36,807 bases of DNA from Desulfobacterales bacterium (GTDB lineage: Bacteria > Desulfobacterota > Desulfobacteria > Desulfobacterales > Desulfolunaceae), in assembly GCA_022360815.1 (NCBI GenBank), contig JAKSCC010000121.1:1-36807 (forward strand), given 5' to 3'. Under the pieces are notes generated by a model. It did no database searches. It was given only the letters and a program-made list of their open reading frames with translations, and was not told the origin of the DNA. Shown one piece after another: positions 24,440-25,059 of this stretch. Position 1 is the first letter of the stretch; each line of letters opens with the position of its first letter. A program made the position numbers and the translations under genes.

Positions 24440-24828
24440 GGTGTCATATCTCCTGTGGATCGTAAAATCTATGGATTAAAGAGGGCCTTTCCACAAGGCC
24501 TTGTGCCTTAAAGGCGCTAAGAAACCGGAGAGACTCTCCGGAAGATTGGTTAAATCACAATGCATTGCCTTGATATGGGCGGGAGTATGGGCCAGACAGA
24601 AGGTGAAGTAAAATACCTGTTTTATATGGTGACCATAGCCGCAAGCTATGATTACAGCACCATAAGCATTCAAATATAATTTCAAAGCATTATAGCAGCA
24701 TCAAGAGACGATGCCCCGTTTTTTTTAAAGAAATATTCCCTCGCAAGACACTTGCTCGTCAAGATACTTTGCGATAAAAGATTGACGACAAAATGGCACC
24801 CTTAAAAACAACAATAAGGAGGTTTTCC
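24440..24828. other. Divergent intergenic region
   Basis: About 390 bases between the SDR gene and the small basic-protein gene. It contains the 17-base palindrome at 24525-24541 and a small CATAGC/GCTATG hairpin at 24634-24650. No gene is supported; the one possible minus-strand frame has no ribosome-binding site and no recognisable product. Confidence 0.5.
24525..24541. promoter_or_regulatory. Perfect 8+1+8 palindrome upstream of the SDR gene
   Basis: CCGGAGAGACTCTCCGG is a perfect inverted repeat around one base, about 86 bases upstream of the SDR start. It may be a regulator binding site or a tight RNA hairpin. It does not show the T-N11-A spacing of a classical LysR box. Confidence 0.35.
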
Positions 24829-25059
24829 ATGGGAAAACGAAAAAAGAGGCAAAAGCCCATTGTCGAAACCGTTGAGTTAACGCGGCAAATGGGACGCATT
24901 CCCACCGCTCCCCCATCCAAGGCTTTTCGAGACAAATCCAAATACCGCCGAAATGAAAAGCACAAAAAATCCTGGACGCCCTCCGGGGCCGGTTGGCATC
25001 CAGGATTCCTCTTATATCTTCCCCAGCCATCCCTCTTTATGCCTGCCCATCTTTTCTAA
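24829..25059 (+). CDS. Small basic protein whose frame runs into a 3' hairpin; ArfA/BrfA-like architecture
   Basis: 76 codons with a near-perfect ribosome-binding site (AAGGAGG at 24817-24823) before ATG 24829. Residues 1-47 are strongly basic and carry the element PPSKAFRDKSKYRRNEKHK. Residues 48-76 are hydrophobic and look unrelated. The change falls where a hairpin (24968-25007) begins inside the frame, and there is no stop codon before it. In arfA of E. coli and brfA of Bacillus the message is cut or terminated at such a hairpin. The nonstop product is tagged by tmRNA when trans-translation works and acts in ribosome rescue when it fails. The Y-x-R-x-x-K-H spacing resembles E. coli ArfA, but the rest does not align well. 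Family assignment is tentative; the gene itself is likely real. Confidence 0.6.
   Translation: MGKRKKRQKPIVETVELTRQMGRIPTAPPSKAFRDKSKYRRNEKHKKSWTPSGAGWHPGFLLYLPQPSLFMPAHLF
24968..25007. terminator. Hairpin inside the 3' part of the small basic-protein gene
   Basis: AATCCTGGACGCC (24968-24980) pairs with GGCATCCAGGATT (24995-25007), with one C-A mismatch on the plus strand and a G-T wobble on the minus strand. Six A precede it and CCTCTTATATCTT follows. The T tract is better on the minus strand, but no minus-strand gene lies upstream within 1.4 kb, so it probably acts on the plus-strand message as a terminator or RNase III site. Confidence 0.6.

Follow-up and report, generated by a model that had tools for sequence, protein, structure and literature searches.

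A candidate backup ribosome rescue factor with a hairpin inside its reading frame in Desulfobacterales, and its distant relationship to DUF7230

A small gene from a Desulfobacterales bacterium has the layout of a nonstop gene, in which a stable RNA hairpin begins inside the reading frame ahead of any in-frame stop codon. It lies in a 36,807-nt stretch of contig JAKSCC010000121.1, which is hereafter called the window. The best explanation appears to be that the gene encodes an autoregulated, release factor-dependent backup factor for the rescue of nonstop ribosomes, which would be made from a nonstop mRNA and silenced by tmRNA; the probability of this reading is put at roughly three in four. 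It was reached from the combination of the arfA/brfA layout, a Y-x-R-x-x-K-H tail, and the presence of tmRNA, RF1, RF2, and ArfB. Comparative sequence directly shows the nonstop layout and its conservation, the covariation of the stem, the drop in coding conservation, the motif, and the presence of the partner factors. The same layout in distant sulfate-reducing and methane-oxidising relatives probably marks an unrecognised rescue factor family. The features of the window that bear on this reading are as follows.

2211-2627, + strand: ArfB (alternative ribosome rescue aminoacyl-tRNA hydrolase), by NF006718 (183.9 bits, cut-off 100) and PF00472
24816-24822, + strand: Shine-Dalgarno sequence AAGGAGG with a 6-nt spacer to the ATG, from the sequence
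24829-25059, + strand: open reading frame of the window gene, 76 codons (76 aa), called from the sequence
24829-24966, + strand: conserved coding core, codons 1-46, MGKRKKRQKPIVETVELTRQMGRIPTAPPSKAFRDKSKYRRNEKHK, from identity to relatives and a profile match to DUF7230
24968-25007, + strand: in-frame hairpin with stems of 9 bp, 3 bp, and 3 bp, from folding and equivalent hairpins in homologues
25008-25059, + strand: non-conserved hydrophobic remainder of the frame with the stop codon TAA (25057-25059), from the sequence and conservation in homologues; probably absent from the translated main product

Two genes of this design have been well characterised. In Escherichia coli, the in-frame stem-loop of arfA is cut by RNase III and transcription also terminates there; tmRNA tags the ArfA product for degradation, but the product builds up when trans-translation is overloaded, and the C-terminus produced by read-through is hydrophobic and unstable (PMC3989581). 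In Bacillus subtilis, a terminator inside brfA has the same effect, and the gene is silenced by trans-translation; ArfA and BrfA were both reported to insert a basic tail into the vacant mRNA channel and to activate RF2 (PMC6881298). A Lys-His pair common to the two proteins contacts U534 of 16S rRNA (PMC6881298, PMC8012679). By analogy, cleavage or termination at the hairpin around codon 47 would leave the mRNA of the window gene with no stop codon. As long as tmRNA and SmpB are working, a ribosome on this mRNA would undergo trans-translation, and the product of ~47-50 residues would be tagged and destroyed. Should trans-translation fail, the short basic protein would escape tagging and accumulate; its C-terminal Y-x-R-x-x-K-H tail would sit in the vacant mRNA channel, and a class I release factor recruited by the protein (probably RF2) would release the peptide.

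A small basic protein made from a nonstop mRNA might also be ribosome-associated or regulated by tmRNA in some other role, such as hibernation, stall sensing, or signalling of tmRNA failure; the layout indicates only likely control through trans-translation, and the N-terminal region is unlike that of ArfA. However, both well-characterised genes with the layout, arfA (PMC3989581) and brfA (PMC6881298), encode rescue factors, and the common Lys-His tail is an mRNA-channel element, so that such a role is considered improbable and a rescue factor remains the preferred reading.

An earlier, sequence-only reading of this DNA had described a strong ribosome-binding site, about 47 basic residues, and then a hairpin in frame with no stop codon before it, and this description was borne out. 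AAGGAGG precedes the start codon, the first 46-47 residues are strongly basic, and the only stop, at 25057-25059, lies 50 nt past the hairpin. An alternative in-frame ATG upstream, at 24793, would give a protein of 88 aa and is not preceded by such a site. The C-terminus of the core carries an F-x-D-K-x-K-Y-x-R-x-x-K-H motif, whose tail residues Y39, R41, K44, and H45 are encoded immediately 5′ of the hairpin.

The hairpin begins at the second base of codon 47 and has a minimum free energy of -24.7 kcal/mol. Its z-score was -3.0 for a 66-nt stretch (0 of 200 shuffles as good) and -2.5 for a 71-nt stretch (5 of 200), so that on its own it is moderately unusual and suggestive, but no more; its weight derives from the near universality of an in-frame hairpin after the same motif in homologues. 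The element is proposed to form the 3′ end of the functional mRNA, via termination and/or RNase III cleavage. Since it contains internal loops and its 3′ U-run (CCUCUUAUAUCUU) is weak, either route or both may be possible; the outer stem has 9 bp, a short length for an RNase III substrate. On the minus strand the stem is followed by TTTTTT, which corresponds to an A-run of Lys codons and could also terminate antisense transcription.

With regard to relatives, the 49-residue core was used as the query. It found Desulfoluna spongiiphila and D. limicola at 74-76% identity and also picked up a Proteobacteria MAG and one other genus from within the order; identity to two other genera is ~46-50%. 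A profile search added two more genomes and one Methylococcaceae MAG. Besides both Desulfoluna species, four other genomes of the window's order carry relatives. Carriage is patchy, the gene being present in three of the six genomes searched of the window's genus. In three genomes of that genus (G003-G005), the gene is absent and ArfB-type proteins are present. No relative of the window protein was detected in the plasmid sequences searched. A conserved operon was considered and rejected, as the flanking genes of the Desulfoluna relatives are unlike those of the window, save for one distant 4Fe-4S-type match.

In nearly all relatives, drawn from several genera and two major lineages, a strong hairpin or intrinsic terminator lies in frame directly after the Y-x-R-x-x-K-H end. 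The frame passes through intrinsic terminators with U-runs in L004 (GGGTATGGAC..GTCCGTGCCCTTTTT), L024, L025, L034, and L035, and in D. spongiiphila, D. limicola, and the genes of the methanotroph order it enters stems of 20-28 bp, mostly without a U-run. L034 and L035 contain a longer basic insert (FKDKKREAKKRGAYSKRR) with ArfA-like spacing, followed by their in-frame terminators. In some relatives (L002, L003, L030, and L031), the first stop codon sits in the 3′ arm of the stem; this is the case in the near-perfect stems of 24-26 bp of D. spongiiphila (L002:1657-1716) and D. limicola (L003, reverse strand). These stems bear little resemblance to the compact window hairpin, yet the 5′ flank is homologous. 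The window hairpin draws on a segment also present in D. limicola but pairs it with a different 3′ sequence, which suggests that what has been retained is a hairpin and not the peptide. Within the Desulfoluna trio, the cores are 76-87% identical at the amino acid level, and beyond codon 46 identity drops to 39-67%. Most homologues thus agree with two predictions of the sequence-only reading, namely that coding conservation would be lost at codon 47-48 and that a hairpin would follow at that place.

In a uniform scan permitting loops of up to 10 nt, 36 of 44 family members had a hairpin that scored at least 30 and whose 5′ arm lay ahead of the stop, and the hairpin usually started at codon 44-47. 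L005 and L048 were under-called because their stems have longer loops, and L053 also has an in-frame hairpin. Dinucleotide shuffles of the same stretches reached this score in 1 of 1760 cases. As a positive control, 21 of 29 true ArfA genes scored at least 25, a slightly lower cut-off than the one applied to the family, with the hairpin similarly placed and, in some of them, a stop codon that falls within the 3′ arm. Pairing in the larger branch points the same way. In 27 DUF7230 genes of the methanotroph order, a 23-bp stem is 95.0% paired, compared with 75.2 ± 1.2% in shuffles, two-sided (compensatory) changes occur at 19 of the 23 stem pairs, and the covariation score is 0.64, against 0.27 in shuffles and 0.09-0.15 in slid registers; none of the shuffles or slid registers approached the real stem. 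It is therefore concluded that selection acts on the RNA hairpin.

These data also bear on a simpler explanation, in which the element is a mere terminator, possibly bidirectional, that overlaps the end of an ordinary small gene and is read through in frame by chance. The stem followed by TTTTTT on the minus strand and the weak U-run on the plus strand would fit such a terminator. However, the in-frame position after the same motif recurs at loci without common neighbours, long stems lack a U-run in many relatives, and, among 193 ordinary genes of 200 codons or more used as controls, only 2 show such a hairpin starting ahead of the stop. In addition, the ORF list has no minus-strand gene ending near the window hairpin. 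A chance overlap is accordingly regarded as very improbable.

The sequence-only reading had named homologues with an ordinary stop codon and no hairpin as evidence against it. A few of these do exist (L032, L033, L036, L037, L141, and the viral L129-L136), set against the 36 of 44 members with a hairpin before the stop; in L032, L033, L036, and L037 the Lys-His end is absent as well. In L032, from a 1.2-Mb genome (G755), the last codons overlap the start of a gene resembling cysteine synthase.

The window genome holds tmRNA, RF1, and RF2, and the ArfB encoded at 2211-2627 is, judged by its profile matches, a second backup rescue factor in the window, outside the locus of the hairpin gene. The suggestion that the two genes form a layered rescue system is consistent with ArfB in the window and tmRNA in the genome. 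It does not extend to four other carriers, in which RF1 and RF2 only, and no ArfB, were found.

The only Pfam match of the window protein is a sub-threshold one to DUF7230 (PF23876), covering residues 31-48 (E 7.6e-5; 23.2 bits, compared with a gathering cut-off of 27 bits). Three further relatives from the window's order match DUF7230 at the same stretch, two with E <1e-3 and one with E 0.08. In a profile comparison by hhalign, the window family matched DUF7230 with a probability of 94%, an E-value of 9e-8, and a score of 36.5, whereas 200 column shuffles reached at most 15.4 (0 of 200 as good) and the reversed profile 9.6. The window protein and DUF7230 have in common a 17-residue F-x-D-K-x-K-Y-x-R-x-x-K-H block, and the same in-frame hairpin occurs in nearly all methanotroph-order members read. 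On the other hand, the window protein lacks the N-P-V-A-K segment and falls below the gathering score. No mention of DUF7230 was found in a literature search, and NCBIfam names neither the window protein nor the DUF7230 members. A search of PDB chains with the family profile gave chance matches only.

ArfA (YhdL, PF03889), known from E. coli and other beta- and gammaproteobacteria, resembles the window protein in being small and basic, in its hydrophobic dispensable tail, and, as far as the layout of the sequence indicates, in having a hairpin in frame before the stop. The C-terminal Y-x-R-x-x-K-H has identical spacing in both and even follows the E. coli ArfA numbering. The earlier claim of this common spacing in an otherwise different protein is upheld by Y39, R41, K44, and H45 and by the lack of an ArfA assignment in Pfam or NCBIfam; the KGKG(S) stretch and the N-terminal ...NA(I/L)xALxxxxLF... 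region of ArfA are missing from the window protein. The two also differ in the lineages that carry them. In the class of the Methylococcaceae MAG, DUF7230 was detected in 10 of 274 genomes and ArfA in 3; in its order, taken to be Methylococcales, DUF7230 occurs in 181 of 251 genomes and ArfA in none.

It is nevertheless conceivable that the protein is a true but highly diverged ArfA and not a member of a separate family, a view that overlaps with the rescue factor reading and competes with it on family assignment only. When compared with an alignment of 31 ArfA proteins, the profile matched in the C-terminal 14-15 columns only (probability 56-60%, score 24.0), and column shuffles reached at most 14.9-19.6 (0 of 200 as good) and reversed profiles 11.4-12.4. 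L034, L035, and some phage forms have an ArfA-like basic insert before the tail, which makes a remote kinship with ArfA possible, and L034 and L035 are possible intermediates between DUF7230 and ArfA. Some ArfA proteins end in ..YQRNGKHKGQEPYSI, close to the ..YQRKAKHSGLEPFSI of DUF7230. However, no PF03889 match was obtained for the window protein or nine relatives even at E up to 10, and the alignment spans the short basic tail only. This resemblance exceeds chance but may stem from convergent evolution towards one mRNA-channel site, an argument already made for BrfA (PMC6881298). A diverged ArfA is thus held to be unlikely, if less so than the alternatives discussed above.

A literature search for other described nonstop factors returned only ArfA, BrfA, ArfT, and ArfB. 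BrfA (YqkK), compared here by design only, is likewise a small basic protein with a KH tail, encoded by a nonstop gene with a hairpin inside the frame; it differs in its N-terminal helices, which contact H69/H71, and in being limited to Bacillaceae, and the U-run of the window hairpin is weaker than in an intrinsic terminator. ArfT of Francisella is similar as a small release factor-dependent rescue factor with a basic C-terminal stretch, but its gene ends in an ordinary stop codon that is preceded by neither a terminator nor an RNase III site (PMC6299226). ArfB (YaeJ) also rescues nonstop ribosomes but has its own GGQ hydrolase domain. On the evidence of sequence and analogy, the window protein is filed as a putative factor working like ArfA and BrfA, distantly related to DUF7230 and outside ArfA membership. 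The earlier proposal of an undescribed rescue factor is supported insofar as Pfam and NCBIfam do not place the protein in ArfA and DUF7230 is a distant relative, rescue being its probable activity.

DUF7230-like proteins are also encoded by viruses. The viral contigs L129-L136 (IMG/VR) encode proteins of the form NPVAKYAH..DKKK..KGYVKHKK, and large enterobacterial phages carry a DUF7230-like protein, such as Cronobacter phage S13 (KC954775.1, 1083-1256) and Citrobacter phage Ci1 (OR515478.1, 129362-129454). These viral proteins have relatives in phrog_1359, phrog_6310, and phrog_2701, none of which has an assigned function. The viral-contig copies, which have ordinary stops and no in-frame hairpin, may be constitutive versions. 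A broader view, tentative and given slightly less than an even chance, is that DUF7230 and the Desulfobacterota branch form a separate, widespread lineage of release factor-dependent nonstop rescue factors that would be coupled to the failure of tmRNA through an mRNA that truncates itself, and that the stop codon-bearing versions of phages would escape this control and be constitutive during infection.

To our knowledge, neither ArfA nor BrfA is known in Desulfobacterota. If the rescue factor reading is true, self-truncating backup rescue genes would extend to this phylum, a further lineage with the regulatory design of arfA and brfA would be added, and a domain of unknown function present in most genomes of a methane-oxidising order would gain a function. 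With several carriers lacking ArfB and an order of 251 genomes lacking ArfA, this reading also offers an explanation of how these bacteria might withstand losing trans-translation. The in-frame hairpin would then serve as a sequence signature in searches for further factors of this kind.
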